From the NCBI GenBank assembly GCA_945878995.1, contig CAMCUN010000012.1:1-64000 (forward strand): 64,000 nucleotides of DNA, read 5' to 3'. This DNA is from Polaromonas sp. YR568 (GTDB lineage Bacteria > Pseudomonadota > Gammaproteobacteria > Burkholderiales > Burkholderiaceae_C). Each line of letters starts with the position of its first letter. Position 1 is the first letter of the stretch. Of this stretch, positions 1-34,628 are shown one piece after another. The notes beneath the pieces are model-generated. The model worked only from the letters and a program-made list of their open reading frames with translations, made no database searches and was not told the DNA's origin. The translations under genes were made by a program, and so were the position numbers.

Positions 1-797
1 AGACTGACCCGCACGCCGCAGCGCTTAAAGCGCCGGGTTCCTTCATGGAGCTCGACCTCCAGCTTGATTTTGGAGGCGTGCAGCTGCGCCTGGGTCTGGC
101 GGTCTGTGACCACGCCGGTGGTGTAGGGCACATCGTCGCCCCGGCCAGAAAAAAGCAAAGAGCCGCTCATGGTGTCGGTGGAGAAAAACAAAAAGGACAT
201 GACATGGCCTTTTTCGGCCAGCGTGACCTTGGGGCCGGTGACCGGCTCGGGCACGCCCATGCCCCGGCGCACGCCCCAGGAGTGGTCGCGGCAGGCCCAC
301 CAGCGGTCAATCTCTATGCGCTGGCCCTGGACCTCCAGCCAACCCGTGGCCTGGCCAATTTGGTCAAAGCGCCTGTAGTCTTCCACGGTGCGGCCCTGCA
401 GCCGGGTGTAGTGGGGGTGTTCCTCGTGCGCGGGCTCCACGCACTCCCAGTGAATCTCACCGTGCACGGCATGGTCTCCCGGGGCAATGTGCAGGTCAAA
501 GGCCTTGAGGGGCTCTGTCACGCGCACGCTCAAGGGGCCGCACACGGTGTTGGCGTCGCGGTGCAAGGAGCGCGAGACGCGCAGGTTGTACTGGCGCCCG
601 TCCACGATCACCACGGCGCCGCCGTCCATCACGTTCATGTTGCGGTAGGCGCCCATGGTGAACTGAATGGCCACCCGGCCATCGGGCGAGTAAATGGCAA
701 ACCAAAACCGGTCGAACCAGCGCGGATCGCTGGTCCAGACGTGGTCAAAGGTGGTGGGCAGTTGGTGCCAGAGCGTGTCGTCAAGGGGGGTCAGCAT
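1..797 (-). CDS. DUF7064/DUF7065-like protein, 3' end beyond the window
   Basis: An open frame of 265 codons starts at ATG 797 and runs off the left edge without a stop, so the C-terminus is missing. The product is rich in Trp and acidic residues and contains a conserved-looking core (RWWACRDHSWGVRRG, about residues 174-188) that I associate with the DUF7064/DUF7065 family found in lipid and steroid catabolic clusters. It has no signal peptide. It follows the 159-aa gene by 3 bp, so it is the last visible gene of the long minus-strand operon. The role is unknown; the beta-rich fold of this group resembles AttH/CrtC-type hydratases, but that link is inference. Confidence 0.75.
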   Translation of the reverse strand, partial: MLTPLDDTLWHQLPTTFDHVWTSDPRWFDRFWFAIYSPDGRVAIQFTMGAYRNMNVMDGGAVVIVDGRQYNLRVSRSLHRDANTVCGPLSVRVTEPLKAFDLHIAPGDHAVHGEIHWECVEPAHEEHPHYTRLQGRTVEDYRRFDQIGQATGWLEVQGQRIEIDRWWACRDHSWGVRRGMGVPEPVTGPKVTLAEKGHVMSFLFFSTDTMSGSLLFSGRGDDVPYTTGVVTDRQTQAQLHASKIKLEVELHEGTRRFKRCGVRVS

Positions 798-800
798 GGC

Positions 801-1280
801 TTAATTTTTAACTTGGGAAGATGGACTGGAAGGACTGGCAGGGCTGGGCGCGGTGGCCACGTAGCGCATGGGCATGCGGGAAGCGCGCGCGCTCATGTGC
901 GCCACCACGGCGCGGTGCTGCTCGGGCGTGAGCTGCGCGCTGCACACGGCCTCGGCCATGAGCTCGCGCAGCAGGTGGTTGTGCGCGTCCAGCGCAGCCA
1001 TATCGGCCACATCGGGCTCGGGCGTGGCGAGCGCAAGCGCCACTCGCTCGGCGAGTTCGGCGCTGACCGAGCGGTTCAGCTGCGCCAGCAACTGGCCGGT
1101 GGTCTGGTTGTCCTGGCGCAAAAAGGGCGCCACGCCGGGCAAGGCGTCGGTGAGCATGCGCAGGTTGGCCACCACACCGTCCAGCAGGGTGCGGGCCAGC
1201 GGGTCGTTCACACAAGGGGCCACCACGTCTTCAAGAATGCGGCAAGTGCCCTGGAGTTGCTCTTCCACGCTGGGCCTCAT
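801..1280 (-). CDS. conserved hypothetical protein of the catabolic operon
   Basis: This encodes a soluble, mostly helical protein of 159 aa. The start is ATG 1280, which overlaps the stop of the upstream phosphotransferase gene as ATGA, indicating translational coupling; a longer in-frame version would overlap that gene deeply and is unlikely. No catalytic motif is recognised. The protein has Leu/Ala-rich helices and a Pro/Ser-rich tail. Small helical proteins of this kind often accompany APH-like kinases and DUF7065 proteins in catabolic clusters, which fits the two neighbours, but I cannot assign a function. Confidence 0.7.
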   Translation of the reverse strand: MRPSVEEQLQGTCRILEDVVAPCVNDPLARTLLDGVVANLRMLTDALPGVAPFLRQDNQTTGQLLAQLNRSVSAELAERVALALATPEPDVADMAALDAHNHLLRELMAEAVCSAQLTPEQHRAVVAHMSARASRMPMRYVATAPSPASPSSPSSQVKN

Positions 1281-2344
1281 GAGGCAGCCTCCATCATTTG
1301 GAACATGGGGCGGTACAACCAGGTAGGCGTTTGGAACACGCGGTGGTAGCGGCCCGCCACAAACTCGGCCACCGCCGTGAGCTGGATGATGGACAGCTTC
1401 CAGCATGAAAACACGTTCCACCACAGCAGGTCGGCTTCTGCCACCTGCCGGCCTGTGCGCTCGCGGTAGGCTTGCACAATCTCGCGCCGCTCCCAGTGGC
1501 CAGGGATTTGGTGCTCGCGCTTGCGCACCGGGTTGGTGACCCAGCCCAGGTCTTCCAGCGGGTCGCCCAGTTGCGCGGTTTCCCAGTCGAGTTTGGCGGT
1601 GATGCGGCCCTGGTCGATCAGCGCATTGCCCGGCTTGAAGTCGCCGTGCACCAAGACCAAGGCCTCGGCCTGGGGCGCACGGCGGCGCAGCCAGCTCAGC
1701 ACGTAGTCCAGCTCGGGGTGGGGCTCGAGTTGAGCCTTGCGGTACTCGCCCTCCCAGTGCGCCAGGTCGCGCAAAGAAGGCGCGCCTTCGGGCACGCCCA
1801 AGCGCTCACCCAGGCCCAGGGCGCGCCAGTCCACCGCGTGGATGGTGGCCATCAAGGCCAAAAAGTCCTGCGCCAAGGACAAGCGCGCGTCCAGCGGGCC
1901 GGGGCCATTGAGGGCCATGTAGTCGCACACGCCTGGCATGCGCTCCATGACCACCGAGGGCGCGCCCAGGCGCTGGCCTTGTTCGTCCATCCAGAAAATT
2001 TTCGGGGCAGGCACGGCCGTGAGTTCCAGCGCCTTGAGCACCGCGCACTCGCGTGCGCGGTCGGTGTGCAGCAAGGTGCCTGCCGCGTCGCGCATGAGCA
2101 TGAGGCGGTGGTGGTGCGCGCCTTGCGCGTCGGTCCAGGTGGCGTCAAACGACCAGTTCTCGCGCGACAAACCACCGGCGCTTCTGAGCAGCCCGTCCAA
2201 GGCGATGCCCTGCGCCGAAGGGTGGGCGTCCAAGATGAGCTGGCGCAAACCGGCCAGCACCTGAACCGCAGGGTCCACGGCGTCCATGGCGGCACTGCCT
2301 GCGGCGCGGGCAGGGGCGGGGTCAGAGGAGCTGCGGTCGGACAT
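1277..2344 (-). CDS. phosphotransferase family protein (APH/ACAD10-11-like kinase fold)
   Basis: This 355-aa aminoglycoside-phosphotransferase-fold protein is of the type found with acyl-CoA dehydrogenases. The catalytic loop LVHGDFKPGNALID (about residues 230-243) supplies the HGDxxxxN motif, and AKLDWETAQLGDP supplies the metal-binding Asp. Related ACAD10/11 kinase domains phosphorylate 4-hydroxyacyl-CoAs to allow beta-oxidation of hydroxy acids, which would suit lactone-derived hydroxyacyl-CoA here; that role is inferred. It heads a three-gene unit (with the 159-aa and DUF7065-like genes) behind a 73-bp AT-rich gap that carries an island-type operator motif. Confidence 0.88.
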   Translation of the reverse strand: MSDRSSSDPAPARAAGSAAMDAVDPAVQVLAGLRQLILDAHPSAQGIALDGLLRSAGGLSRENWSFDATWTDAQGAHHHRLMLMRDAAGTLLHTDRARECAVLKALELTAVPAPKIFWMDEQGQRLGAPSVVMERMPGVCDYMALNGPGPLDARLSLAQDFLALMATIHAVDWRALGLGERLGVPEGAPSLRDLAHWEGEYRKAQLEPHPELDYVLSWLRRRAPQAEALVLVHGDFKPGNALIDQGRITAKLDWETAQLGDPLEDLGWVTNPVRKREHQIPGHWERREIVQAYRERTGRQVAEADLLWWNVFSCWKLSIIQLTAVAEFVAGRYHRVFQTPTWLYRPMFQMMEAAS

Positions 2345-2395: not shown

Positions 2396-2425
2396 CAATT
2401 CGAATTGCATTTCGTATTTATGAAT
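2396..2425. promoter_or_regulatory. putative operator/promoter of the phosphotransferase unit
   Basis: The gap 2345-2417 is far more AT-rich than its surroundings and contains a perfect 12-bp palindrome, CAATTCGAATTG (2396-2407), followed by ATTTCGTATTTAT. The same TTCGAA core recurs in the other promoter gaps of the island. It suggests an internal regulated promoter for the three distal genes. Binding by the IclR protein encoded at 9833 is inferred. Confidence 0.5.
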
Positions 2426-2858
2426 TATTTGGGGTGGTTTCAAATGAAAAAACCAGCTCCGGCAAGTTGCCAGCAAGCTCAAATCGCCCGCGCACTGGCA
2501 GCCCTATGGCCAGCGGGCCGCCGCGCCAGCGGCCCAAGGCGCGCACGCCCTCTTGCAGGTCCACCGTGACCAGCACATAGGGCACATCGGCAGCAAAGCC
2601 CGGGTGGAACACATGGTGGCACACCGTCCAGCTGTGAATGTGGCCCAGCCCGCTGGCCGGAGTCCAGTGCGCCTCTGAGCTGTGGCACTGGGCACACAAC
2701 AAGCGCGGGTAATGGCGAATGGTGGCGCAGGCGCTGCATTGCTGCAGCACCAACTGGCCGCGCTGGGCCGCGTCCCAGTAGGGCTGGGTCAGCGCGCTGG
2801 GCACGGGCACAGGTTTGGCCGGCATGGGGCTTGGCAGGTCGGTGGAGGTATGGACCAT
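2418..2858 (-). CDS. Zn-ribbon domain OB-fold protein (DUF35/ChsH2-like)
   Basis: This 146-aa protein has an N-terminal four-cysteine zinc ribbon (C41, C44, C55, C58; spacing CxxC-x10-CxxC) followed by an OB-fold. Proteins of this family are obligate partners of thiolase-like enzymes: ChsH2's DUF35 domain with Ltp2 in steroid side-chain cleavage, and the archaeal acetoacetyl-CoA thiolase/HMG-CoA synthase complex. Here the thiolase-like gene is immediately upstream with only a 1-bp gap (2859), so the two products probably form one complex. The last gene before the internal AT-rich promoter. Confidence 0.9.
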   Translation of the reverse strand: MVHTSTDLPSPMPAKPVPVPSALTQPYWDAAQRGQLVLQQCSACATIRHYPRLLCAQCHSSEAHWTPASGLGHIHSWTVCHHVFHPGFAADVPYVLVTVDLQEGVRALGRWRGGPLAIGLPVRGRFELAGNLPELVFSFETTPNNS

Positions 2859-2859: not shown

Positions 2860-4017
2860 TCAGCCCCTTCGCAAAATGGCCACGGCGCCGTCGCCCATGT
2901 CGCCGTAACCGGTCACCAGGCCGAGCTCGGCGCCCGGCACCTGGGCCAGCCCGGCCTGGCCACGCAGCTGCCGGGTCAGCTCCACCACATGGTTCAAGCC
3001 CCACACATGGGCTTGCGAGAGCAGGCCACCGTGGGTGTTGGTGGGCAGCGCGCCGCCCGGGCGCAGGCGGCCGTCGGCAATAAAGGGGCCGCCCTCGCCT
3101 TTGGCGCAAAAACCCAAGTCTTCAAGCTGGCGGATGACAGCGTAGGTGAAGCAGTCGTAAATTTCGAGCAGGTCCATGTCTTGGGGCGTGACGCCGGCCA
3201 TCTGAAAGGCTCGCGGCGCGCACTTGGCCAGGCCCAGGCTGGTCATGTCGGGGCGCTGGGTGATGGCGCCGGGTGAGTCGGGGTGGCCCTCGGCCACGCC
3301 CGAGATGTAGACCCGACGCTGGCGCAAATCGGCCGCCTGGTCGGCAGCCGAGACCACGATGGCCGCGCCACCGTCGCTCTCTAAACTGCAGTCCAGCAGA
3401 CGGAAAGGGTCGGCGATCATGCGCGAGCGGTGGTGGTCCTCCAGCGTGATGGGCTTTTTCATGAGGGCGTTGCTGTTGCGCAGCGCGTGCTCGCGGCAGG
3501 CAATGGCCACCTCTGCAAAGTGCGCCTCGGTGGTGCCGTAGAGCTCCATGTGCCGGCGCGCCATGGGGGCGTAAAGCTGGGCCGGTGCAATGGCCCCAAA
3601 GGGATATTCAAACTCGGTGACAAAGTGAAAGGCCGGCATGGTGTGGATGCGGGCACCCGCGCGGGTCAGCGCGGCGGCCGTGACGTTGCGCCCAAAGGTG
3701 ATCAGCACATGGCTGCACACCCCCGCGGCCACGGCGGCGGCGGCGCTTTGTAAAGCCATCACCGGACTGGCACCGCCGTGGGGCACCAGGGTGGAGAACT
3801 TCAGGTCCGGAATGCCAAAGTTGTCAATGAAGTCATCGGCCGTGCCGCTGACGATGCCTATCGGAATCACGCCGTCGATTTGCGCCGGCTTGAGCCCGGC
3901 ATCGGCAATGGCCGCGAGCGAGGCTTGCAGCTGCAGCTCAAAAGCGCTGCTGGTGGAGCCGCGCATGTAGACCGTCTCGCCTATGCCGGTGACACAGGCT
4001 TTGTCCTTGAGGGTCAT
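2860..4017 (-). CDS. thiolase-family protein, lipid-transfer/retro-aldolase type
   Basis: This 385-aa thiolase-fold protein belongs to the SCP-x/Ltp group. At the usual nucleophile position the sequence reads HGGASPVMALQSA (about residues 79-91) with no cysteine, while the C-terminal region keeps the family pattern IYDCFTYAV and NTHGGLLSQAH. Loss of the N-terminal Cys is what one expects for Ltp2-like enzymes, which do retro-aldol cleavage rather than Claisen thiolysis. The adjacent DUF35 gene supports such a complex. A conventional acetyl-transfer role is therefore less likely. Confidence 0.88.
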   Translation of the reverse strand: MTLKDKACVTGIGETVYMRGSTSSAFELQLQASLAAIADAGLKPAQIDGVIPIGIVSGTADDFIDNFGIPDLKFSTLVPHGGASPVMALQSAAAAVAAGVCSHVLITFGRNVTAAALTRAGARIHTMPAFHFVTEFEYPFGAIAPAQLYAPMARRHMELYGTTEAHFAEVAIACREHALRNSNALMKKPITLEDHHRSRMIADPFRLLDCSLESDGGAAIVVSAADQAADLRQRRVYISGVAEGHPDSPGAITQRPDMTSLGLAKCAPRAFQMAGVTPQDMDLLEIYDCFTYAVIRQLEDLGFCAKGEGGPFIADGRLRPGGALPTNTHGGLLSQAHVWGLNHVVELTRQLRGQAGLAQVPGAELGLVTGYGDMGDGAVAILRRG

Positions 4018-4047: not shown

Positions 4048-5211
4048 TCAGCTGGGCTTGCGCGCCACTTTGGGCAGGATGGCGTTGGCCACGATTTGCT
4101 TCATTACCTCGGCCGTGCCGCCACCTATGCGGCACATGCGGGCATCGGCAAAGGCGCGGGCAATCGGGTACTCCCACATGTAGCCCCAACCGCCAAAAAA
4201 CTGCAGGCATTGGTCCATGACCTTGAACTGCAAATCGGTGGTGACGAGCTTGCAGGCGGCGGCATCGACCGCATCGAGCAAGCCCTGCACATGCAAGGCC
4301 ATGCAGCGGTCCACAAAAGTCCGTTGGGCCAGCACCTGGGCGTGCAAGTCGGCCAGCGTGAAGCGGGTGTTTTGAAAATCCGACAGGTTTTGGCCGAACA
4401 TTTTGCGGTCGGCCACGTAGCTCCGAGTCCACTCCAGCGCCGCTTCGCTGGCGCTGACAGCGCGTATGGCCTGAATCAAGCGCTCTTGGGCCAGTTGGGT
4501 CATCAGCACTGCAAAACCGCCGCCTTCGGTGCCCAGAAGGTTGGACGCGGGCACGCGCAAGTCGGTGAAAAAAAGCTCGGCCGTGTCTTGCGCCTTGCAG
4601 CCAATTTTTTCAAGGTGGCGGCCACGGGTAAAGCCCGGGCGGTCGGTCTCGACCAGCAGCAAGCTCACACCGCGTGCCTTTTCTTGCGGGTCGGTTTTGC
4701 AGGCCAAGAGCAGCAGGTCGGCGCTGTGGCCATTGGTGATGAACACCTTTTGCCCGTTGACCACGTAGTCGTCACCATCGCGAATGGCCTGGGTGCGAAT
4801 GGACTGCACATCGCTGCCGCCCGAAGGCTCGGACATGCCCAGGGCCACCACCACCTCGCCGGTGGCCATGCGGGGCAGCCACTTGCGTTTTTGCGCTTCG
4901 GTTCCGAAGTCCACCAAGTAAGGCGCGACGATGTCGGAATGCAGGTAAAAAGTGGGCCCGGTGGCGCCGGCGCGCGCCATTTCTTCAATCAAGATGGCGC
5001 TGTGCAAAAAATCACCGCCCATGCCGCCATAGGCCTCGGGGGCGTTGCACAACAAGAGCCCCAGCTCGCCCGCTTTGCGCCAGAGCGAGCGCGGCACCTG
5101 CCCGTCGCGCTCCCACTGGGCGTGGTGGGGGGTGACTTCGGCCTCTATAAAGCGGCGAACGGTGTCGCGAAAACCTTCATGCTCGGCGCTAAACAAAGTG
5201 CGTGGAATCAT
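4048..5211 (-). CDS. acyl-CoA dehydrogenase
   Basis: This 387-aa FAD-dependent acyl-CoA dehydrogenase has the family signature ALGMSEPSGGSDV (about residues 123-135) and the C-terminal GGWGYMWEYPIAR element. At the position of the MCAD-type catalytic Glu the sequence has IGGGTAEVM, with Gly instead of Glu; E260 in the LEWTRSYV helix aligns with the alternative catalytic base of long-chain/isovaleryl enzymes. This suggests a branched or bulky acyl-CoA substrate (inference). It sits between the cyclase and thiolase genes in one operon and would introduce the 2,3-double bond. Confidence 0.93.
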   Translation of the reverse strand: MIPRTLFSAEHEGFRDTVRRFIEAEVTPHHAQWERDGQVPRSLWRKAGELGLLLCNAPEAYGGMGGDFLHSAILIEEMARAGATGPTFYLHSDIVAPYLVDFGTEAQKRKWLPRMATGEVVVALGMSEPSGGSDVQSIRTQAIRDGDDYVVNGQKVFITNGHSADLLLLACKTDPQEKARGVSLLLVETDRPGFTRGRHLEKIGCKAQDTAELFFTDLRVPASNLLGTEGGGFAVLMTQLAQERLIQAIRAVSASEAALEWTRSYVADRKMFGQNLSDFQNTRFTLADLHAQVLAQRTFVDRCMALHVQGLLDAVDAAACKLVTTDLQFKVMDQCLQFFGGWGYMWEYPIARAFADARMCRIGGGTAEVMKQIVANAILPKVARKPS

Positions 5212-5230: not shown

Positions 5231-6127
5231 TTACAAAATGGCCAGCGGTGTCATGGGGCTGGCGGTGGCGCCCACAATGGGCAGGGCGGCGGCCACGAAT
5301 AAAAACTCGCGCCGGCCGGTGCGCACCAGCGGCTCGAGTTGCATGCCCTCCAGCAGGGGAATGCCAAAGTCACGAATCACGCACTGGTGCACGGGAAACA
5401 CCGTCCCCTCGGCAAAGGGCAGCACCTCAATGGCGAAATTGTCGGCGCCAATGATGGCCACCTCTTGCTGGGCCAGCCACAGGCCGGCTTCATGGTCTAT
5501 GCCGGGCTCGGCGTTGAAGTCGACCACGGCCCGGCCTTGTTGCGCGGCCAGCCAGCCGGTGTGGATCAGCACCACGTCACCGGGCTCGATGTGCAGGCCG
5601 TCCTGGGCGAGGCACGCTTGAATGTCTTGGCGCGAGACCACCTCGCCGTCGTGCAGGGTTCGCCCGCGCAGCGCCACCACATCGATCAGCAGCCCGCGCG
5701 TGACGGCAGGCGGCATTTTGTCGACGCCCAAGCGCGTGGCGCCTGTGGTGCTGCGCATCGTTTCTTCACGGTAGTTGTTGAACATGCGGCCGTCGCCGCA
5801 CCAGGTGTGGCACAGCGCGTCAATGTGGGTGCCTATGTGCAGCGGCATGACCACCGTGTCTTCTGCAAACGAAAAGCCGCCTGGGCGCTTGGCGCCTGCG
5901 GCGTAGTCGCCGCCGTCGCGGCCCATGAAGTGCTGCAGGCCAGACCGGTGGGCGGGCACCGGGGTGCGTTTGGACAGCGGCTGCGCCAAGGCCACCACCT
6001 GGCCCGTGCGCACCAAGCTGGCCGCGCGCCGCACCTGCGCGGGGCCAATCAAGTTCAGGGCGCCGGCTTCGTCCTCTGGGCCCCAGCGGCCCCAGGCGTG
6101 GGGCAGTGTGTCGTTGCGGTCTTGCAT
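5231..6127 (-). CDS. cyclase family protein (metal-dependent, kynurenine-formamidase-like)
   Basis: This 298-aa protein carries the hallmark metal-binding motif HxGTHxDxxxH, seen as HIGTHIDALCH at residues 97-107. The family includes arylformamidases, isatin hydrolase and polyketide cyclases; most bacterial members hydrolyse amide or lactone bonds or open rings using Mn or Zn. In this operon a ring-opening or lactone-hydrolysing role downstream of the monooxygenases is plausible, but the substrate cannot be read from sequence. It lies 19 bp upstream of the acyl-CoA dehydrogenase gene in the same transcription unit. Confidence 0.87.
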   Translation of the reverse strand: MQDRNDTLPHAWGRWGPEDEAGALNLIGPAQVRRAASLVRTGQVVALAQPLSKRTPVPAHRSGLQHFMGRDGGDYAAGAKRPGGFSFAEDTVVMPLHIGTHIDALCHTWCGDGRMFNNYREETMRSTTGATRLGVDKMPPAVTRGLLIDVVALRGRTLHDGEVVSRQDIQACLAQDGLHIEPGDVVLIHTGWLAAQQGRAVVDFNAEPGIDHEAGLWLAQQEVAIIGADNFAIEVLPFAEGTVFPVHQCVIRDFGIPLLEGMQLEPLVRTGRREFLFVAAALPIVGATASPMTPLAIL

Positions 6128-6151: not shown

Positions 6152-7756
6152 TCAGGGCAGCAAAGTGTGCAACATCATTTTCTGCAACTTGCCGGTGGTG
6201 GTCAGCGGCAAGCGGTCCGTGGTGGTGAAGTGGTAGACCAAAGGTACTTTGTAAGCGGACAACTCGGTCTGGCAGTGGCGCTTGAGTTCCTCGGGCGTCA
6301 GTTGCACGCCGGCTTCAAGAATGACGATGGCGGCCAGGGCTTCGTCCAGCACCGGGTGAGGCACGCCGATGACGTAGGCGCTGCGCACGCCGGCGTAGCG
6401 CATCAGCGACTCTTCCACCTCCACCGGGGCAATGTTGATGCCGCCGCTTTTGACCATTTCTTTGAGCCTGCCCCGGTAGTAGAGGCGCCCTTGCGCATCC
6501 TGCCAGCCCAAGTCGCCGGAATGGAAAAACCCATGGTCATCAAAGGATTCGGCGGTTTTTTCAGGCTCGCGGTGGTAAGCCAAAAACAGGGGGCCTTTGA
6601 TGCGGATCTCGCCCACCTCACCGGCTGGCAGCACTTGGCCGGTTTCGATGTGGCAGATGCGCACCGTGACGTCGGGCAGCGGCGCGCCCACCGACTGCAG
6701 CCGCACCTCCAGCGGCTCGCCTGCGTCAATCACGGCGCAGTTGCCATAGGTTTCGCTCAGGCCGTAGACATTGCAAATCTCGTGGGCGCCCAAGTCAATG
6801 GCCACTTGAATTTGCTCGGGCGTGCCTATGATGGCGCCGCTGCGCAAGCTGCTCAGGTCGCGGCCAGGGCGGTCCGGGTGCTCTTGCAGGGCTTGCACGA
6901 TGTTGGGCGTGGCGTAGATGATGCTGCAGCGCTCGGCCTCGATCAGGCGCAGCCCCTCTTGCGCGTCAAAGTGCTCCTGCAACACCACGCAGCCCCCATG
7001 GGTGAGCAAATTGGGCAGGGCATTGACGCAGCCGTAACTCCAAAACAGCGACACCGCCAACCACAGGCGGTCTTCAGGGCCCACATGCTGGCGCTCACCA
7101 ATGTGAAAGCCGTTGCGTATCCAGTGGCCGTGCTGCAGCAAGATGCCCTTGGGCGCTGCGGTGGACCCCGAGGTGTACAGCAGCATGGCCACGTCGTCGG
7201 GACTTGCCACCAGGCCAGCGGCCTCCAGCACGGCCGCGGCTGTGGCCTGGCCTTGGGCCAACATGGCGTCCCAACCCAGCTCTGCAGCGGCCGCATTGAG
7301 CGGCGGGGGCTGCTGCGCATCTGCACTGACCCACACCGTGCGCCGCAAATCGGGCAGCTCGCCGGCGGCCTGCATGGCTGACACCTGGCTGTGCCAGGGC
7401 GTGCGCTTGAAGCGGTCCACGCACACCAGCACACTGATTTGGGCGTGGGTGAGGGCATACACAAACTCGCGCGGCGTGGCCCAGGTGTTCAGACCCACCG
7501 ACACCGCGCCCAGCTGCTGCAGGGCTAAAAAGCTCAACACCCACTCCTGGCGGTTGCCCATCAAAATGCCCACATGGTCGCCCCTGCGCACACCCAGCGC
7601 GTGCAAACCAGCGGCAGTGCGCATGACCTCGTGGCGCAGCTCGCTGTAGCTGAGCCGGTGCGGCCCAGCCACCAGGGCGGGACGCTCGCCAAAGCGCTGG
7701 ACCTGCTCCGAAAGCAAAGTGGGGATGGTCTGGCTGGTGGGCGGCTGAAAGCTCAT
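6152..7756 (-). CDS. AMP-dependent acyl-CoA synthetase/ligase (benzoate-CoA-ligase-like)
   Basis: This 534-aa adenylate-forming enzyme would activate a carboxylic acid with ATP and CoA. The P-loop-like A3 motif LLYTSGSTAAPKGI (near residue 195), the NVYGLSETYG segment, and the C-terminal YRGRLKEMVKSGGINIAPVEVE hinge are all present; the catalytic Lys near the C-terminus lies in LTTTGKLQK. The start is ATG 7756 (protein begins MSFQPPT); a longer frame to 7900 would invade the flavin reductase gene. The position between flavin reductase and cyclase genes suggests that it activates the acid released after ring oxidation. Confidence 0.92.
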   Translation of the reverse strand: MSFQPPTSQTIPTLLSEQVQRFGERPALVAGPHRLSYSELRHEVMRTAAGLHALGVRRGDHVGILMGNRQEWVLSFLALQQLGAVSVGLNTWATPREFVYALTHAQISVLVCVDRFKRTPWHSQVSAMQAAGELPDLRRTVWVSADAQQPPPLNAAAAELGWDAMLAQGQATAAAVLEAAGLVASPDDVAMLLYTSGSTAAPKGILLQHGHWIRNGFHIGERQHVGPEDRLWLAVSLFWSYGCVNALPNLLTHGGCVVLQEHFDAQEGLRLIEAERCSIIYATPNIVQALQEHPDRPGRDLSSLRSGAIIGTPEQIQVAIDLGAHEICNVYGLSETYGNCAVIDAGEPLEVRLQSVGAPLPDVTVRICHIETGQVLPAGEVGEIRIKGPLFLAYHREPEKTAESFDDHGFFHSGDLGWQDAQGRLYYRGRLKEMVKSGGINIAPVEVEESLMRYAGVRSAYVIGVPHPVLDEALAAIVILEAGVQLTPEELKRHCQTELSAYKVPLVYHFTTTDRLPLTTTGKLQKMMLHTLLP

Positions 7757-7793
7757 GGGCGGGTGTCCGGTGTCTCGGGTGTCAAAGTGGCGT

Positions 7794-8348: not shown

Positions 8349-8374
8349 GAACAAAGAAGCCGGGCTGCGCCTGC

Positions 8375-9541: not shown

Positions 9542-9573
9542 ATTTTCGAAATTTAGTCTTTACTTTCGAAAAT
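9542..9573. promoter_or_regulatory. inverted-repeat operator upstream of the LLM monooxygenase operon
   Basis: Two perfect 10-bp inverted arms, ATTTTCGAAA (9542-9551) and TTTCGAAAAT (9564-9573), are separated by 12 bp. Each arm carries a self-complementary TTTCGAAA core. The site lies 91-122 bp upstream of the LLM start within the AT-rich divergent gap 9452-9832. It is the best-formed example of the motif seen across the island. The likely binder, the divergently encoded IclR protein, is inferred from position. Confidence 0.65.
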
Positions 9574-12141: not shown

Positions 12142-12184
12142 GACTTTGCAAGCACCCACTTTAAAGCCAACAAGGAGACTCACC

Positions 12185-13183: not shown

Positions 13184-13190
13184 GAAATCC

Positions 13191-25588: not shown

Positions 25589-25617
25589 TCAGCCCATAAA
25601 CCCCAAGGTCACACACC

Positions 25618-26484: not shown

Positions 26485-26487
26485 GAT

Positions 26488-27582: not shown

Positions 27583-28331
27583 GCGCTGCTCTAGAGATTC
27601 GCGATCTGTCGGTTCGCTACGCCAGCAAAGGGTTTGCGCTGGACGGTGTCAACTTGACCATTCCAAAAGGAAGCATCGTCGCTCTGCTGGGTGCCAACGG
27701 AGCGGGCAAGACCACCTTGATACGCTCGGTCTCCGGCCTGCTGCCTTTGCACAGCGGCCAGATCACCGGCGGCAGCATACACATGGACGGTCAATCCATC
27801 TTGAACATGGCTTCCCACAAGTTGGTGCGCATGGGCATGGGCCAGGTGCCAGAGGGCAGGCTGGTGTTCAAACAGTTGACGGTGGAAGAAAACCTGCGGG
27901 TGGGTGCGGCCGTGCTGCCCCGCTCCACCGAGAAAGAACGCATGGACGCGGTGTACGATTTATTTCCCCGCCTGCTTGAGCGGCGCACACAGTCTGCCGG
28001 CTGGCTCTCGGGTGGCGAGCAGCAAATGCTGGCCTTGGGCCGCGCCCTGGTCACTCAGCCCAGATTGCTGTTGGTCGACGAGCTCTCACTGGGCTTGGCG
28101 CCGCTGATCGTCAGCGCCATTTACAAGCAACTCAAAATGGTGGGCGAGACCTTGGGTGCGTCCATCTTGGTGGTGGAACAAAACGCCAGGTTGGCACTGG
28201 ACTTTGCCTCCACCGCCTATGTGCTGGAGCGCGGACGCATCTCGCTGCACGGCACCGCCGCCGAGGTCGCCGCCAGCGACTTGGTGCGCGAGTCCTACCT
28301 GGGCGTGGCCCAAAAAGGAGCGGCGTCATGA
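27579..28331 (+). CDS. ABC transporter ATP-binding protein (LivF-like)
   Basis: This 250-aa ATPase has Walker A GANGAGKTT, the LivF-type Q-loop region MGQVPEGRLVFKQLTVEENL, signature LSGGEQQML and Walker B LLLVDELSLGLAP. In Walker B the residue after Asp is Glu, as needed for hydrolysis, and the usual Pro is replaced by Leu. The ATG at 27579 overlaps the LivM-like stop, and its own stop overlaps the next start (ATGA), so three genes are chained by 4-bp overlaps. Confidence 0.93.
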   Translation: MSAALEIRDLSVRYASKGFALDGVNLTIPKGSIVALLGANGAGKTTLIRSVSGLLPLHSGQITGGSIHMDGQSILNMASHKLVRMGMGQVPEGRLVFKQLTVEENLRVGAAVLPRSTEKERMDAVYDLFPRLLERRTQSAGWLSGGEQQMLALGRALVTQPRLLLVDELSLGLAPLIVSAIYKQLKMVGETLGASILVVEQNARLALDFASTAYVLERGRISLHGTAAEVAASDLVRESYLGVAQKGAAS

Positions 28332-29092
28332 GCTCGCCCATGCTTGAAGTCACCGAGCTTTTGATGCAGTTTCAGGGCTTGACGGCGCTGGACCGGGTGT
28401 CATTTTCAATGGATGAGGGCTCCATCACCTCGCTGATGGGCCCCAATGGTGCAGGCAAGACCACCATGTTCAACTGCATCACGGGCATGTACACGCCCAC
28501 CAGCGGCCAGGTCCATTTCAGGACCCAGGACATCACGGCCAGACCGGCCTATGAGGTTTCGCGCCACGGCATTGCCCGCACCTTTCAAAACCTGGCGCTA
28601 TTTTCAGGGCTGTCGGTCATCGATAACCTCTTGGTGGGCTCTTACCTGCAAGGCTCCAGCGGCGTGCTGCAAGGTGCATTCAAATCCCCACAGGCCCGTA
28701 AGGAGCAGGCGCAGTCGCTGGAGGCGGCCTACACCGTGCTGGATTACCTGGGCCTGACCGACACGGCCAAACTGCTGCCAGGCGAGTTGTCCTATGGCCG
28801 GCAAAAACAACTCGAATTTGGCCGGGCTTTGATGCAAAAAGCCAAGCTGGTGCTGCTTGATGAACCCATGGCCGGCATGAGCAGCTCAGAAAAAGACGTG
28901 ATGACCTCTTTGATCAAGCGGGTGCGCCGCGAGATGGGCGTGAGCTTCATGCTGGTCGAGCATGATGTGCCTGTGATCATGGACATCTCAGACAAGATTG
29001 TGGTGCTCGACTTTGGCAAAAAAATCGCTGAAGGCACGCCCAGCGAGGTGCAAAACAACCCTGCTGTGATTGCCGCTTACCTGGGGACGTGA
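28328..29092 (+). CDS. ABC transporter ATP-binding protein (LivG-like)
   Basis: This 254-aa ATPase has Walker A GPNGAGKTT, the LivG-type segment GIARTFQNLALFSGLSVIDNL, signature LSYGRQKQLEFGRAL and Walker B LVLLDEPMAGM. The signature has SYG rather than SGG, which is normal for LivG proteins. It is the last gene of the importer operon and converges on the FMO-like gene with a 13-bp gap and no visible terminator. Confidence 0.93.
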   Translation: MSSPMLEVTELLMQFQGLTALDRVSFSMDEGSITSLMGPNGAGKTTMFNCITGMYTPTSGQVHFRTQDITARPAYEVSRHGIARTFQNLALFSGLSVIDNLLVGSYLQGSSGVLQGAFKSPQARKEQAQSLEAAYTVLDYLGLTDTAKLLPGELSYGRQKQLEFGRALMQKAKLVLLDEPMAGMSSSEKDVMTSLIKRVRREMGVSFMLVEHDVPVIMDISDKIVVLDFGKKIAEGTPSEVQNNPAVIAAYLGT

Positions 29093-29105: not shown

Positions 29106-30440
29106 TCAGCTTTGGGCGGCTTGCAATTTGTGCTGGCCTGCCCGTCGCTGACGCTGGAGCTGTTGGCGGTAAAAAGCCGGGTCCAACTCCAAGGCATAGC
29201 GAGCGCTCTGCGGGTAGTTGCGCCGCAGATAGTCTTGCTCCTGAGCCATGACTTGGCGCATCCGAGGCTCTGAGGGCAGCACTTGCGTGCCTGCGACAAG
29301 CTCTGTTATCCACTGGGCCTGATCGTCCATCATTCGGATGTTGCCGCCACCGGCCACATTGAACATCCCAATGAAATACAGCCCCTGGTGGCGGGGATGC
29401 ACCACTCTAAGAAACAGGTCCAGCTGGTGCCCATTCAGTGGCTTGAGCTCTGGCGCCAAAAAAGGCAGATCAACGTGGTAGCCCGTGCCCGCGATGATGG
29501 TGTCAAACACTTCGACGTGCCCGTCGCTGAACTCGACCTCTAGGCCCTTCACGTTGCGTATGCCAGGACGTGCACGGATGCGGTCCCACACGAAATGGGC
29601 CATCAAGCTGGGATGGCTGGTTGGGTGTGTCCGTGTTTGTGGCGTCACAAACCCCCACTGCTCCATGCGGCCATGCACCACGCGGGTGAGCGTTTGGCGC
29701 ATGAAACGGCGCAGCGGCCAAGGCATCCAGGGCTTTTCAAGCCGGCCGAGCACGCGCGACGTCGGCACGCCAAAGAGCATGCGCGGCATCACCAGCACAG
29801 GGGAGCGGGCCGACAGCACGGTGCTGCGGGTGATGGTGCAAATGTCAGCCGCAATGTCTACGGCACTGTTGCCCACCCCCACCACCAACACACGCGTGTC
29901 TCTGAAGGGCTCAGGCACCCGGTAACTGTGTGAATGCAAATACTCCCCGCTGAACTGCGAGCGCCATTCAGGGTGCGCGGGTCGGTTTTGATGGCCGCTG
30001 CCCACGACCACCGCATCGAACACCTTGTCGCTGCCGTCGGCCAGCGTGACTCGCCATTGAGTTCCCTGCGCTTGCACCTGCTGGACCTTTACACCAAAGC
30101 GAATGTGAGGCATCACCCCAAAAAAGTGGGCATAAGCCGCCAAGTAGCTGTACACCTGCTTGTGGTCTGGGTACAGCGGTGCATCGGCAGGAAAAGGAAA
30201 GTCAGCATAGGCCGTGACCCGATTTTCAGAGTTAAGGTGCAAAGACGCATAGGCCGCAGAGATGCCGTTATCGTTCTCATACACCCACAAGCCACCCACT
30301 TGGCTGCCCATTTCGTAGACGGTGACTTCTGCGCCTATGCTCAACAGGTGTTTGGCTGCACACAGCCCAGCTGCGCCAGCGCCTATGACAGCCACGCGTC
30401 TGGCCTGGCCGGGGATGGGCAAATGAGGGTCCGCGCTCAT
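29106..30440 (-). CDS. FMO-like flavin-containing monooxygenase
   Basis: This 444-aa class B flavoprotein has the FAD motif VIGAGAAGLCAAKHLL (residues about 18-33), the FMO-type identifying sequence FSGEYLHSHSY (163-173) in place of the strict BVMO fingerprint, and the NADPH motif VVGVGNSAVD near 187. It may oxygenate a heteroatom or a ketone. Its start overlaps the BVMO 2 stop (ATGA), so the two are co-translated and probably act on related substrates. Confidence 0.92.
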   Translation of the reverse strand: MSADPHLPIPGQARRVAVIGAGAAGLCAAKHLLSIGAEVTVYEMGSQVGGLWVYENDNGISAAYASLHLNSENRVTAYADFPFPADAPLYPDHKQVYSYLAAYAHFFGVMPHIRFGVKVQQVQAQGTQWRVTLADGSDKVFDAVVVGSGHQNRPAHPEWRSQFSGEYLHSHSYRVPEPFRDTRVLVVGVGNSAVDIAADICTITRSTVLSARSPVLVMPRMLFGVPTSRVLGRLEKPWMPWPLRRFMRQTLTRVVHGRMEQWGFVTPQTRTHPTSHPSLMAHFVWDRIRARPGIRNVKGLEVEFSDGHVEVFDTIIAGTGYHVDLPFLAPELKPLNGHQLDLFLRVVHPRHQGLYFIGMFNVAGGGNIRMMDDQAQWITELVAGTQVLPSEPRMRQVMAQEQDYLRRNYPQSARYALELDPAFYRQQLQRQRRAGQHKLQAAQS

Positions 30441-32113
30441 GGCCGCACAGCCATGTCTGAGGGTGTGTGGCTTTGAGCAGTAGAAGCATCACCCAGCCCT
30501 GCCCTTTTGAAACCCTCATAGTTGTTGGCGGCGATGCGATCGCACTCGGCCCTGTACAGACCAATCTTGCTCACATAGGGCATGAACACCCGTGGTTTGC
30601 CAGGAACATTGGCGCCCAAGTACCAGGACTTGGCCAAGGGGAACAGTGTTTTATCGGCCGCCTCATTGACATGCGTGACCCAGCGCGTTTGCGCCGACTG
30701 TTCAGCCTCAATGGTGCTCAAGCCGTCGCGCCGCATATCGTCCAGACAGCGGGCGATCCAATCCACATGTTGCTCTACCCCCACCACCATATTGACCAAC
30801 ACCGAGGGACTGCCCGCGCCTGTGATGATGAACATATTGGGAAAACCCACCGTCATCAAACCCAAGAAGGTGCCTGGACCGTCGCGCCATTGCTCCCGCA
30901 GTGACACTCCATCCCGTCCTGTGATGTCAATTTGCAGCACCGCTCCAGTGAGCGCGTCATAACCGGTGGCGCACACCAACGCATCAAGTGGGAATGCTTC
31001 ATCGCGAGTCCATACGCTGTCATCAGTGACGCTTTCAATCGGCGTGGCTTGGAGGTCCACCAAACGCACATTGGGCCGGTTGTAAGTTTCAAAGTAGTCG
31101 ATATCCACGCAAATACGTTTGGTACCCAAGGGATGGTCTTTGGGACACAGGGCCTGTGCGACCGCAGGGTCGTGCACCACTCGGCGTATCCGCTCGCGCA
31201 CAAAGTCGGCCACGGTGTCGTTGGAGGTCTTGTTGACCATGAGGTCGGTGAAGGCATGGACAAAGTTGACGCCACCTTTGTTCCAGCGCCGCTCATATTC
31301 GCGCTCGCGGTCTTGGTCTGACACCTCAAAGGCTTTTTTATCGCTGAACTCATAAAGCGTGCCCACTTCGCGCGCTCGTGCGCGATGCGCGGGGTAAGCC
31401 TGCTTGAAGGCCTTCTGATCCTCATGTGACAAAGGGGTGTTGCGCGCAGGAATTGAGAAATTCGGCGTGCGCTGAAACACATTCAGCTGCAATGCTTGCT
31501 TGGCGATTTGCGGAATCACCTGAATGCCTGAGGAACCTGTGCCAATCACACCCACCCGCAGGCCCGTGAAGTCCACACCTTCATGTGGCCAGTGACCGGT
31601 GTGGTGGACAGGGCCCTTAAAGCGTGAGATGCCCGGAACCTCAGGCAAACGAGGAACAGACAAGGCGCCCGTGGCCATCACGCAAAAACGAGCGTCAAAC
31701 ACCTCGCCTTGCTCGGTGTGCACCTGCCAGTGCTCGCACTGCTCGTCAAAGCGCATGGCCCGCACGCGGGTGTTGAATTGAATGTCCGGGCGCAATTCAA
31801 AGCGCTGCGCGACATGCTGCAGGTAGCGCAAAATTTCTGGCTGGCTGGCGTATTTCTCGCTCCACTCCCACTCCTGTTCGAGCTCAGAAGAAAAAGAATA
31901 GGAGTACTGCAGGCTTTCAACGTCGCAGCGCGCCCCAGGATAACGGTTCCAATACCAAACGCCGCCTACGTCGGCAGCCGCTTCAAGCACACACACCTTC
32001 CAGCCCATGCTGCGCAATCTGTGCAGCGCATACAGGCCCGCAAAGCCGGCGCCTATGACAATTGCGTCCACGCTTGTATGCTGTCCGTTTGAGAACTTTC
32101 CGTTTTCGCTCAT
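30437..32113 (-). CDS. Baeyer-Villiger-type flavin monooxygenase 2
   Basis: This 558-aa BVMO has the FAD motif VIGAGFAGLYALHRL (residues about 19-33), the fingerprint FKGPVHHTGHWP at 165-176 and the NADPH motif VIGTGSSGIQVI. The start is ATG 32113 (MSENGKF); a longer frame to 32152 would run into the AT-rich promoter. It is strongly similar to BVMO 1 but its DNA is visibly less GC-rich, so the duplicate may have been acquired separately. It is coupled to the FMO-like gene downstream. Confidence 0.94.
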   Translation of the reverse strand: MSENGKFSNGQHTSVDAIVIGAGFAGLYALHRLRSMGWKVCVLEAAADVGGVWYWNRYPGARCDVESLQYSYSFSSELEQEWEWSEKYASQPEILRYLQHVAQRFELRPDIQFNTRVRAMRFDEQCEHWQVHTEQGEVFDARFCVMATGALSVPRLPEVPGISRFKGPVHHTGHWPHEGVDFTGLRVGVIGTGSSGIQVIPQIAKQALQLNVFQRTPNFSIPARNTPLSHEDQKAFKQAYPAHRARAREVGTLYEFSDKKAFEVSDQDREREYERRWNKGGVNFVHAFTDLMVNKTSNDTVADFVRERIRRVVHDPAVAQALCPKDHPLGTKRICVDIDYFETYNRPNVRLVDLQATPIESVTDDSVWTRDEAFPLDALVCATGYDALTGAVLQIDITGRDGVSLREQWRDGPGTFLGLMTVGFPNMFIITGAGSPSVLVNMVVGVEQHVDWIARCLDDMRRDGLSTIEAEQSAQTRWVTHVNEAADKTLFPLAKSWYLGANVPGKPRVFMPYVSKIGLYRAECDRIAANNYEGFKRAGLGDASTAQSHTPSDMAVRP

Positions 32114-32164
32114 GTGGCCTCCAAAGGGCTGAATGGCTTGATGCCTGTGCAATGAAAATGAATG

Positions 32165-32212
32165 ATTTATTTTCGAAGTTTCGAATAAGATCTCGGTTTT
32201 TCGATAATTTTA
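32165..32212. promoter_or_regulatory. putative operators in the BVMO 2 / MFS divergent gap
   Basis: The gap 32114-32334 holds ATTTATTTTCGAAGTTTCGAATAA (about 32165-32187), with two overlapping TTCGAA cores, and TTTTTCGATAATTTTA (32197-32212). They lie 52-99 bp upstream of the BVMO 2 start. This is one of the densest clusters of the island motif and places the BVMO 2-FMO pair in the same putative regulon. Confidence 0.55.
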
Positions 32213-32334: not shown

Positions 32335-33933
32335 ATGTTTCAAAATTCACCGCTGCGCCACCCCGTATTTAGCTTGTTTTACAGCGGCTGTGTGTGCACC
32401 GCCTTGGGCTACACCATGCAGGGCACTTTAGCGGCCTGGCTGATGGCGACGCTGTCCACTTCGGCCGTGATGGTGGCCCTGGTGCAGACGGCCACCGCAG
32501 GCCCGGTGCTGGTGTTGGGCTTGATTGCAGGCTTTGTGGCCGACAGCATGGACCGCAGGCGCATGATTTTGATCACCCAATGGGTCATGTTGGCTGCGGT
32601 GCTGGCCCTGAGCGCCATGGAATCCACACACCACCTCACACCCGCTGTGCTGCTGTCATTGACTGTGCTTGTCGGTGTTGGCTTTGCTTTTTACTTGCCC
32701 GCCCAAATGGCCAGCATCCAAAGCATGGTCACGCGTGCAGAGTTGCCTGCCGCATCGGCACTCAACGCGGTGGCTTTCAATGCGGCACGGGCGGTGGGCC
32801 CTGCCTTCGCAGGTGCGCTGGTCATTGGCTTGAGTGCCGGCAGCGCACTGCTGGCCAGTGCTGCTTTTTTTATGGTGACCATCGCCATCGTTTACCGCTG
32901 GCAACCAGGTCCACAACTGCTGCCGGGGCCCACAGAAGGCTTGCTCAAAGGTGTTCAAGCAGGTTTGCGCTTCGCCTGGCATTCGCAGGCGCTGCGCGCC
33001 GTCACAGCACGCAATGTGAGTTTCAGTTTTTGCGCCAGCGCGTTTTGGGCCTTGCTGCCTTTGATAGCCAAAGAACAACTGCGCGCCGGTGCCGGGGGCT
33101 TTGGGCTGCTGTTCACCGCCTTTGGTTTGGGTGCCATTTTTGGCGCCTGGTTAACACCTGCCTTGATACGCCGCACCTCGCTGAACGCCACCACCAACTG
33201 GGGGGCGTTGGTCTGGGCCGCCGCTGTGGCCGTGGTGGCCTGGGCCGACTGGCCCAGCGCGATCATTGGCGGTGCGTTTGTGGCCGGCAGTGCTTGGGTG
33301 GCGGTGTTGTCCAGCCTGTCGGCGGGAACCCAAAGCCGAGCACCCACATGGATGCGTGCACGTGCAGTGTCTATTTACATCGTAGGCACCCAGGCAGGCT
33401 TGGCCATTGGCAGTGCCGTTTGGGGCACGGTGGCCAGTTTGATAGGTGTTCGCTTGGCCTTGCTGTGCTCGGTGGGGGTGTTGTTGGTGGCTTATGTCTT
33501 GTTGCGGCAACTGCGTATACAGCCTGGCACAGAAGCCGATACATTACCCAACCCTTCGGTGGCTGAGCTGAGCATCACACACACACCTGACCCAGAGGAT
33601 GGACCCGTGTTGATTCAATTTGAATACCACATTGACCTCGTCTATCAGGCTGAATTTGTACAGGCCATGGACGCTGTGGGCCCAGCCCGTAGGCGCAGTG
33701 GTGCCAGCAATTGGGGGGTGTTCAGAGACCTCAATGACAGCAGCAGATTTGTGGAGCGCTATGTCATCACGTCATGGGCAGATTACCTTCGCCAGCGTGA
33801 ACGCATGACCCAGGCCGATAAACTGCGGCACGAGAAGGCCACACGTTTTCAAAAAGCAAATGTGCCCATCAAATTGTCCAGGTTCATCGGTGTGGAGGCT
33901 GGCAGTCTCAGCGGCGACAAAACCATCGCCTAA
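32335..33933 (+). CDS. MFS transporter (MFS_3/transmembrane secretion effector type)
   Basis: This 532-aa major-facilitator protein has about twelve hydrophobic segments in residues 10-395, the loop DSMDRRRMILITQW after helix 2, and a soluble C-terminal domain of about 120 residues (FEYHIDLVYQAEF ... RQRERMTQADKLRHEKATRFQ). That MFS plus ABM-like tail is typical of the MFS_3 (PF05977) group, which includes EntS-like exporters. In this setting it may export a toxic intermediate. The adjacent AT-rich divergent promoter suggests co-regulation with BVMO 2. Confidence 0.88.
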   Translation: MFQNSPLRHPVFSLFYSGCVCTALGYTMQGTLAAWLMATLSTSAVMVALVQTATAGPVLVLGLIAGFVADSMDRRRMILITQWVMLAAVLALSAMESTHHLTPAVLLSLTVLVGVGFAFYLPAQMASIQSMVTRAELPAASALNAVAFNAARAVGPAFAGALVIGLSAGSALLASAAFFMVTIAIVYRWQPGPQLLPGPTEGLLKGVQAGLRFAWHSQALRAVTARNVSFSFCASAFWALLPLIAKEQLRAGAGGFGLLFTAFGLGAIFGAWLTPALIRRTSLNATTNWGALVWAAAVAVVAWADWPSAIIGGAFVAGSAWVAVLSSLSAGTQSRAPTWMRARAVSIYIVGTQAGLAIGSAVWGTVASLIGVRLALLCSVGVLLVAYVLLRQLRIQPGTEADTLPNPSVAELSITHTPDPEDGPVLIQFEYHIDLVYQAEFVQAMDAVGPARRRSGASNWGVFRDLNDSSRFVERYVITSWADYLRQRERMTQADKLRHEKATRFQKANVPIKLSRFIGVEAGSLSGDKTIA

Positions 33934-33977
33934 GATCTGAATGAACAAAGTTCATCGTGCTTTCAATCAATTCATCC

Positions 33978-34628
33978 ATGCTCCGCTATCAAACCATCCC
34001 CGTCACCGCCTTTGCCCAAAACTGCTCTTTGGTATGGGACGACGACAGCTTGCAAGCCGCTGTGATCGACCCCGGCGGGGACTTGGAGCGTTTGTTGTCC
34101 GAGGTCGAGCGCCTGGGTTTGAAACTCGGACAAATTTGGCTGACCCATGCACACATTGACCACGCAGGCGGCACGGCCGCTTTGGCACGCCGCTCAGGGT
34201 TGCCCATTGTGGGCCCACACCCGGGCGACCAGTTCTGGATCGATGGCTTGCCGCAACAAAGCCGCATGTTTGGTTTTCCAGAGGCGCAAACCTTCACACC
34301 CACGCGCTGGTTGTACGACGGTGACCAAGTGAAAGTGGGGGCGCATGTGCTCCATGTGCGCCACTGCCCGGGCCACACGCCTGGCCATGTGGTGTTTTAT
34401 TCGCCCGAAATTCAACGCGCTTTTGTAGGTGACGTGCTCTTTGCGGGCAGCATTGGACGGACAGACTTTCCGCAGGGCAATCATGGCCAGCTCGTTCAAA
34501 GCATCACTGAGCGCTTGTGGCCCATGGGCGATGACACCGTCTTCATTCCAGGCCATGGGCCAGAAAGCAGCTTTGGCCAAGAGCGGCAAAGCAACCCGCA
34601 TGTGGCAGACCGGGTGCTCAATCGTTGA
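33978..34628 (+). CDS. MBL-fold metallo-hydrolase (glyoxalase II-like)
   Basis: This 216-aa metallo-beta-lactamase fold protein has the metal motif THAHIDHAGG (HxHxDH, about residues 54-63), HCPGHTPGHVVFY supplying the next His, the bridging Asp in FVGDVLFAGSIGRTDFP, and a final IPGHGPES. This pattern is that of YcbL/GloB-like hydrolases acting on thioesters such as S-lactoylglutathione. The start is ATG 33978 (MLRYQTIPV). It lies 44 bp after the MFS gene. Confidence 0.93.
   Translation: MLRYQTIPVTAFAQNCSLVWDDDSLQAAVIDPGGDLERLLSEVERLGLKLGQIWLTHAHIDHAGGTAALARRSGLPIVGPHPGDQFWIDGLPQQSRMFGFPEAQTFTPTRWLYDGDQVKVGAHVLHVRHCPGHTPGHVVFYSPEIQRAFVGDVLFAGSIGRTDFPQGNHGQLVQSITERLWPMGDDTVFIPGHGPESSFGQERQSNPHVADRVLNR

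Follow-up and report, generated by a model that had tools for sequence, protein, structure and literature searches.

Oxygenases and an aldolase-like protein in the block

The DNA analyzed, referred to here as the window, comprises 64,000 nucleotides of Polaromonas sp. YR568 (assembly GCA_945878995.1, contig CAMCUN010000012.1, positions 1 to 64,000) and represents nearly the whole contig (64,139 bp). The block under study, positions 1-34628, carries genes for flavin monooxygenases, acyl-CoA ligases, candidate lactone or ester hydrolases, an aldolase-like thiolase, solute uptake systems and an IclR-family regulator (9833-10708, plus strand; PF01614, PF09339), all identified from Pfam and NCBIfam scans of the window proteins. 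Since the window spans almost the entire contig and starts at its left end, the block and the operon at its left edge (operon A) are cut on that side. We favor, with moderate confidence, the view that the block represents the greater part of a single catabolic regulon, with the IclR protein as its probable controller through a multi-box operator made of TTTCGAAA, in which a CoA-activation/aldolase route is combined with Baeyer-Villiger oxygenation. It looks like a regulon with which a freshwater-type bacterium breaks down a ring- or ketone-type compound.

An initial annotation of the DNA had listed four flavin monooxygenases, and the scans bore this out. Type I Baeyer-Villiger monooxygenases (BVMOs) are recognized by the fingerprint FxGxxxHxxxW[PD] located between two GxGxxG motifs. 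Both BVMO1 (18061-19683, minus strand) and BVMO2 (30437-32152, minus strand) matched the expected Pfam models and carry the fingerprint, FAGLRLHTSAWP at residue 160 and FKGPVHHTGHWP at residue 178, respectively, with GxGxxG on either side. The closest solved relatives of both are phenylacetone monooxygenase (PAMO, 1w4x) and steroid monooxygenase (STMO, 4ap3), at 603-657 bits; the best match of BVMO1 is the steroid enzyme (617 bits) and that of BVMO2 is the phenylacetone enzyme (657 bits). The class B flavin monooxygenase (FMO; 29106-30440, minus strand; PF00743, 196.9 bits) has the FMO-type variant of the fingerprint, FSGEYLHSHSY. The fourth enzyme is a luciferase-like monooxygenase (LLM; 8375-9451, minus strand; PF00296) whose best solved match is 3,6-diketocamphane monooxygenase (4uwm, 115 bits). 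The adjoining gene codes for a separate flavin reductase, its likely partner (7794-8354, minus strand; PF01613, 146.8 bits), an arrangement that defines a two-component system. The LLM is a candidate type II BVMO and may instead catalyze another reaction of the LLM family. Because of these motifs and of the nearest solved relatives, PAMO/STMO and diketocamphane monooxygenase, Baeyer-Villiger oxygenation is the likely reaction class of the block, as the initial annotation had proposed. For many Baeyer-Villiger monooxygenases no native role is known. The same genome encodes a further BVMO (contig C8, 45001-65000), 52% identical to BVMO2, beside an HSL-type hydrolase, an acyl-CoA dehydrogenase and Liv genes.

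A retro-aldol step had also been postulated, and the thiolase-fold protein of operon A (THL; 2860-4017, minus strand) supports it. Its best PDB alignment is 4u4e ("Thiolase", 253 bits), followed by the aldolases TcLtp2 (6ok1, 238 bits) and CtSal (9myr, 171 bits). According to PMC12329534, CtSal requires Tyr302 and Cys304 of its YDCY motif and has a glycine in place of the nucleophilic cysteine of SCP-2 thiolase. THL has YDCF at residues 287-290, with Y287 and C289 in the corresponding positions, and contains no cysteine in residues 9-100, the span that holds the nucleophile stretch TLVPHGGASPV. Assignment as a thiolytic thiolase was rejected on this last point. The neighboring gene encodes a DUF35/ChsH2-type partner (2418-2858, minus strand; PF01796, PF12172) with a C4 zinc finger, C-x2-C-x10-C-x2-C. 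Judged by its YDC dyad, its DUF35 partner and its lack of the nucleophilic cysteine, THL is more likely an aldolase than a thiolase. A comparison of six THL orthologue loci from five genomes found YDCF in every one, and the C4 finger is likewise conserved in each of the seven DUF35 loci compared, which come from six genomes; the distant thiolase of locus L075 (38% identity) has YDSF. CtSal-CtShy and TcLtp2-ChsH2 share with THL the YDC motif, the lack of cysteine in the nucleophile stretch and the DUF35 partner (PMC12329534). They differ in that the DUF35 protein of the window is a separate small C4-finger protein rather than part of a MaoC hydratase with a C3H1 finger, that the hydratase candidate is a crotonase, and that their steroid context was not seen in the window. 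THL orthologues are rare, found in three of 300 genomes of the order, own genome included, at E 1e-110. Seven loci (L060, L070, L073, L148, L159, L162 and L167) have an FMO gene directly ahead of THL-DUF35; this is not so in the window, L040, L046 and L169.

An apparent operator shared by the operons

The operons of the block have in common an apparent operator composed of TTTCGAAA boxes 20 (and 28) bp apart. Two perfect boxes with the 20-bp spacing are located between the LLM and IclR genes (9544-9571). Versions with two mismatches lie ahead of the operon that includes the TctC, NDP-forming ligase, NMO and ECH genes (11089-11116) and between the BVMO2 and MFS genes (32179-32206, with an extra box that begins at 32171), and imperfect boxes, with one exact TTCGAA at 23232, precede the hydrolase-Liv operon (23200-23240). 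Of the nine copies of TTCGAA in the 64 kb, six fall in four promoter regions of catabolic genes (1,124 bp in total); the remaining copies are at 2399, in the 73-bp gap between the DUF35 and APH genes, at 19852, inside the amidohydrolase gene, and at 49538, inside mnmG. No copy was present in nine further stretches, 3,870 bp in sum, that were treated as intergenic, although one of them (7901-8374) is mostly coding. In a Markov control modelled on the four regions, none of 3,000 sequences reached six copies (mean 0.39), a figure that overstates the case because the regions were picked after the motif had been seen there. The arrangement TTTCGAAA-N12-TTTCGAAA, with up to three mismatches, was found three times in the window versus 0.08 expected.

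The same spacing was observed in relatives. Across 33 loci (582,375 bp), with at most two mismatches, there were 20 TTTCGAAA pairs with a spacing of 20 and 17 with a spacing of 28, compared with between zero and two at any other spacing in the range 9 to 60, although both spacings had already been noticed in some of these loci before the count. Nineteen of the 20 pairs at spacing 20 are outside aligned genes, by genes for LLM, TctC, LivK, hydrolase, a CaiB-type CoA transferase, IclR or SDR-BVMO2. At the same stringency the own 4.1-Mb genome contains four sites: three at window promoters and one at position 17381 of contig C36, the latter counted as a pathway site post hoc. A second Liv importer follows this site, and the block around it also carries 2-oxoacid dehydrogenase genes together with thiolase-like genes and one AMP-binding ligase-like gene. 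The 2-oxoacid dehydrogenase genes of that contig (8001-28000) are 93-99% identical to those near cluster 1 of the related genome G013, compared to about 54-91% for most other shared pathway genes, which may reflect either recent transfer or strong constraint.

Because a control with the pattern written backward gave an equally high number at three mismatches, that count was uninformative and was redone at two. Eleven genomes that carry the cluster then had 32 sites, 23 of them on pathway loci (one, on contig C120 of G022, counted as such by its contig and its likeness to a G013 site), and all nine sites with zero or one mismatch were on pathway loci. Eleven hand-picked cluster-free genomes, with no matches for CYC, NMO, BVMO2 and LivK, had six. 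The backward pattern gave 17 sites in the carrier genomes and 12 in the cluster-free ones. The case for the operator is therefore based on position and mismatch class rather than on counts. One cluster-free genome (G024, contig C1, 221546) has a strong double box with one mismatch and no pathway homologue within the 19 kb around it. The regulator gene is within the locus and the common motif is ahead of the target operons, as in IclR regulons; from this position and from co-conservation we infer that the IclR protein is the predicted binder of the TTTCGAAA boxes.

Conservation of the block in other genomes

Of 61 genomes, the own genome (G000) and 60 relatives, 14 gave matches to the LLM and 10 to BVMO1. 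Four genomes of the same genus, G007, G013, G022 and G023, have LLM at 81-82%, BVMO1 at 60-66%, NMO at 78-82% and LivH at 82-91% identity. The LLM and BVMO1 genes are together in G000 and G023 and on two contigs in each of G007, G013 and G022, where they are either apart or not seen to be joined. In a set of 87 same-genus genomes, CYC, a PF04199 family hydrolase with an HxGTHxD motif (5231-6127, minus strand), was found in 10, and NMO, a member of the nitronate monooxygenase/FabK-type reductase family (15412-16542, plus strand; PF03060), in 14, nine of these at 77% or more (close orthologues). BVMO2 was found in 13, with six full-length matches at 61% or more and one partial at 73%, and LivK in seven; these are raw genome counts, uncorrected for species relatedness. 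The genomes with a BVMO2 orthologue and those with LivK are the same seven; all seven have a close NMO orthologue and six have CYC, while the contig of G022 stops just past ACS, short of CYC. BVMO2 and LivK are accessory, given that G092 and G104 lack both and still have CYC and NMO. G108 (82% complete) and G109 go against the pattern, with CYC and no close NMO orthologue.

Beyond the genus there were at least 571 LLM relatives, of which the best 80 were kept. The best 11 of the 80 loci (L067-L077) carry pathway neighbors in part, and are titled mostly as Comamonadaceae, Ramlibacter, Burkholderiales or betaproteobacteria, with one "Akkermansia" and one "uncultured bacterium". The record titled Akkermansia muciniphila (L067) has an LLM 97% identical and neighbors like those of Comamonadaceae records, and its title suggests a binning or naming mistake. 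Titles of the remaining 69 are mostly alphaproteobacterial and several of their contigs are short; apart from the LLM, window genes aligned there at no more than about 44% identity. Another context of the LLM is seen in loci L078-L146, from Bradyrhizobium, Pseudolabrys, Afipia and others, where the orthologues are 64-71% identical and often have Liv genes or a distant PF04199 hydrolase nearby. A core set of genes is also present on plasmid pRZP2 of Rhodococcus sp. ZPP, in the order FMO-THL-DUF35-ECH-ACS-CYC-CoA transferase-APH-hypothetical-hypothetical. Identities are 53% (FMO), 67% (THL), 51% (DUF35), 69% (ECH), 38% (ACS), 48% (CYC), 39% (CoA transferase) and 45% (APH); the last hypothetical protein is 26% identical to the DUF7065 protein and has no Pfam match, and ACAD (68%) and IclR (48%) are in the vicinity. 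Plasmid pRop44186_a of R. opacus has a partial version, without THL, DUF35 and ECH in the stretch read.

Remaining genes of the block

Operon A is extended at the left edge by a kinase module that was absent from the initial annotation, as was the shared operator. It consists of an APH-type kinase with an HGDFKPGN motif (1277-2344, minus strand; PF01636, 103.7 bits), a small conserved protein without Pfam match (801-1280, minus strand; 58-67% identity in L068, L165, L166 and L169), and a DUF7065-type protein whose 3' part is cut by the contig end (1-797, minus strand; PF23213, 27.8 bits with a cut-off of 27). The last shares 82% identity with its full-length counterpart in L068, and its structure prediction gave no usable fold (mean pLDDT 32.7). 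In L068, a record titled as a Comamonadaceae pond metagenome-assembled genome with an LLM 96% identical, a CoA transferase gene comes after the kinase module. By analogy with LvaA and ACAD10/ACAD11, as described in PMC11342911, the kinase is a possible hydroxyacyl-CoA kinase. The levulinate lva operon and ACAD10-ACAD11 likewise have a kinase near an acyl-CoA dehydrogenase, for hydroxyacyl-CoA; the window differs from them in having a DUF7065 protein, and the likeness would be one of gene context.

The two mechanistically different CoA ligases listed initially were both found, one AMP-forming (6152-7900, minus strand; PF00501, 256.6 bits), whose start is probably near 7777 because the L041 and L049 alignments begin at residue 42, and one NDP-forming (NDPL; 13167-15398, plus strand; PF13549, PF13607, PF13380). 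The claim of a beta-oxidation set held in part. An acyl-CoA dehydrogenase (ACAD; 4048-5211, minus strand; PF02771, PF00441, PF02770), an enoyl-CoA hydratase family protein (ECH; 16555-17319, plus strand; NF006100 over its cut-off), the "thiolase" and DUF35 are present, and the set is only partial because the scan of window proteins, which covered not every open reading frame, gave no match to the 3-hydroxyacyl-CoA dehydrogenase (3HCDH) family. Cluster 2 of G013 does have a 3HCDH gene. An SDR dehydrogenase is at 17333-18124 (minus strand; PF13561).

Besides CYC, the candidate hydrolases are an amidohydrolase-2 family protein that may be a lactonase (19699-20790, minus strand; PF04909; 69 bits with the L-fuconolactonase model, whose cut-off is 400), an SMP-30/gluconolactonase family protein (SGL; 21147-22106, plus strand; PF08450) and an HSL-type alpha/beta hydrolase (23270-24220, plus strand; PF07859, 244 bits), which makes up the four expected, plus an MBL-fold hydrolase (33957-34628, plus strand; PF00753; 76-78% identity in the G013 and G085 clusters). 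A conserved protein with no Pfam match and an approximate start (22303-23115, plus strand) has 37-53% identity in L067-L071 and L077. Uptake could be served by the predicted Liv-type ABC importer (24230-29092, plus strand), confirmed with subunits K (24230-25588), H (25618-26484), M (26488-27582), F (27516-28331) and G (28328-29092), and by two TctC solute receptors (PF03401; 11116-12141, the longest frame, with a true start maybe at a later ATG, and 12146-13183, both plus strand). An MFS transporter is encoded at 32335-33933 (plus strand; PF05977).

Proposed route and alternatives

The conserved neighborhoods, the matching phylogenetic profiles and the shared operator together support the claim that the block is one functional unit, a conserved, probably co-regulated catabolic regulon rather than a chance pile-up of genes. 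Its parts are of unequal standing, contrary to what had been assumed: BVMO2 and LivK occur in only seven of the genomes with core genes, and the amidohydrolase/SGL promoter has no box. We read BVMO2 and Liv as a probable accessory funnel that feeds a CYC-ACAD-FMO-aldolase/NDPL-NMO-ECH core. In the route that we propose, whose order of steps and substrates we infer, the compound would be imported by the Liv and TctC systems, activated by the AMP- or NDP-forming ligases, dehydrogenated by ACAD and hydrated by ECH. The resulting 3-hydroxyacyl-CoA would be cleaved by the Sal/Ltp2-kind aldolase with DUF35 into a short acyl-CoA and a carbonyl compound. The FMO, the two BVMOs and the two-component LLM would convert ketones to esters or lactones, to be opened by CYC, the HSL-type hydrolase, SGL and the amidohydrolase, and the APH module may phosphorylate the freed hydroxyl, leading to elimination.

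Several observations weigh against this regulon. None of its genes names a substrate. The LLM is not pathway-specific, because its orthologue (64-71%) lacks close pathway homologues in 69 of the best 80 loci, and the FMO gene of the window is outside the aldolase operon. That the aldolase feeds the BVMOs is a guess, because CtSal produces an aldehyde, not a ketone (PMC12329534); THL may release either. As for regulation, the promoter region between the amidohydrolase and SGL genes (20791-21146) lacks the operator, one of the 20 spacing-20 pairs is inside an aligned gene (the TctC frame as aligned), nine of the 32 carrier-genome sites are elsewhere than on pathway loci, and site counts alone are not decisive because the backward control reached 17 versus 32. 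The role of IclR as binder is insecure, because TetR (L060) and LysR (L070) genes lie near the cluster in relatives.

Among alternatives, an alkylaryl or linear methyl-ketone route is possible, if doubtful. It would resemble degradation of 3-(4-sulfophenyl)butyrate by Comamonas testosteroni KF-1, in which the side chain is shortened and the aryl ketone is converted by a BVMO to an ester for an esterase. Both BVMOs are PAMO-like, and an HSL-type esterase gene adjoins BVMO1 in G007, G013, G022 and G023, much as the BVMO gene of the KF-1 4-sulfoacetophenone route has an adjacent esterase gene (PMC3746432). An intradiol-type dioxygenase gene (PF00775/PF04444) of G013 next to the TctC1 gene, with an operator site in the 5' part of TctC1, raises this option slightly. 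However, the window proteins scanned included no aromatic ring-cleavage enzyme, and the presence of several lactonase-type families and of the kinase module agrees at least equally well with ring or lactone chemistry. The KF-1 genes are a surfactant pathway between IS1071 elements (PMC3746432).

A camphor-type route for bicyclic or monocyclic terpenoids, with the LLM as a diketocamphane-like type II BVMO followed by a CoA ligase, a second BVMO and lactone hydrolysis, seems rather improbable. The best solved match of the LLM fits it, as does the presence of ligase, BVMO, hydrolases and SDR, but the LLM similarity is distant, no cytochrome P450 was found among the window proteins scanned, and both BVMOs are far closer to PAMO/STMO than to OTEMO (657 versus 476 and 617 versus 429 bits). 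A camphor pathway with an OTEMO-type BVMO was rejected on these scores, which are well under those of PAMO and STMO.

A steroid or bile-acid route is unlikely. It would combine a Sal/Ltp2-type side-chain aldolase with removal of the C17 acetyl group by an STMO-like BVMO and LLM, as in the pdc cluster of Caenibius tardaugens. The THL residues match those of CtSal (PMC12329534), the best solved relative of BVMO1 is a steroid monooxygenase, and PMC12239570 describes pdc as a small cluster that encodes a type I BVMO together with an LLM, Baeyer-Villiger enzymes that each oxidize progesterone. One substrate can thus be served by both kinds of enzyme; pdc has four genes, two of them regulators, and no ligase, aldolase or importer. 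Searches of five carrier genomes weakly disfavor the steroid-like substrate of the initial annotation. KshA_C scored 20-35 bits against a cut-off of 23.3, just passed in four of the five, and NF009473 (PRK12835), which we take to be a 3-ketosteroid dehydrogenase model, stayed below its cut-off in all (best 429 versus 837 bits), both weak tests with no steroid-degrader positive control. Finally, a patchwork of unrelated catabolic operons adjacent by chance, to which the two contigs of G007, G013 and G022 and the other contexts of the LLM might point, is very improbable given the matching phylogenetic profiles and a shared motif in both clusters and ahead of a third block.

The regulon does not form a category of its own but is a new variation on Baeyer-Villiger catabolism as already known. 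Consistent with the early view that it falls outside described pathways, searches of an open-licence library brought up no paper recognized as describing the cluster, and none of the papers listed in one of these searches contained the motif TTTCGAAA; passages of a paper on abscisic acid (PMC7996341) contained no relevant genes. A bolder and less probable reading is an undescribed pathway common to Comamonadaceae and Rhodococcus. In it, a Sal-like aldolase would act on CoA-activated alicyclic acids to unmask a ketone, an FMO-type enzyme would serve as a further Baeyer-Villiger oxygenase to open the ring, the kinase/DUF7065 module would remove a hydroxyl by phosphorylation and elimination, and BVMO and Liv genes would be exchangeable funnels, all under one multi-box IclR operator. 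The type II BVMO expansion of SAR202 (PMC5395668) is similar in that LLM-type BVMOs, with CoA transferases and SDRs, are predicted to carry out alicyclic oxidation, and differs in consisting of paralogue families in marine Chloroflexi, not a single regulon. Because the regulon, with its two type I BVMOs, one LLM and one FMO, is recognizable by its motif, a reporter could be used to look directly for the inducer. If the proposed chemistry holds, the block would show how such bacteria attack alicyclic organic matter and would offer a genomic marker for the trait, with CYC in 10 of 87 genomes of one genus.

Other features of the window

Two direct copies of a GC-rich 77-nt sequence, 92% identical (10773-10849 and 10891-10967), lie between the IclR gene and the TctC operon; their 54-base core has no third copy in the window. 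A second flavin reductase gene (59303-60058; PF01613) is distant from the LLM gene. The region to the right of the block includes genes for MinC, MinD, a heavy-metal ATPase, a TctC, a thiolase, MnmG, ParA and ParB. The presence of MinD, MinC, MnmG/GidA, ParA and ParB at 35695-54611 suggests that the block is located near the replication origin.

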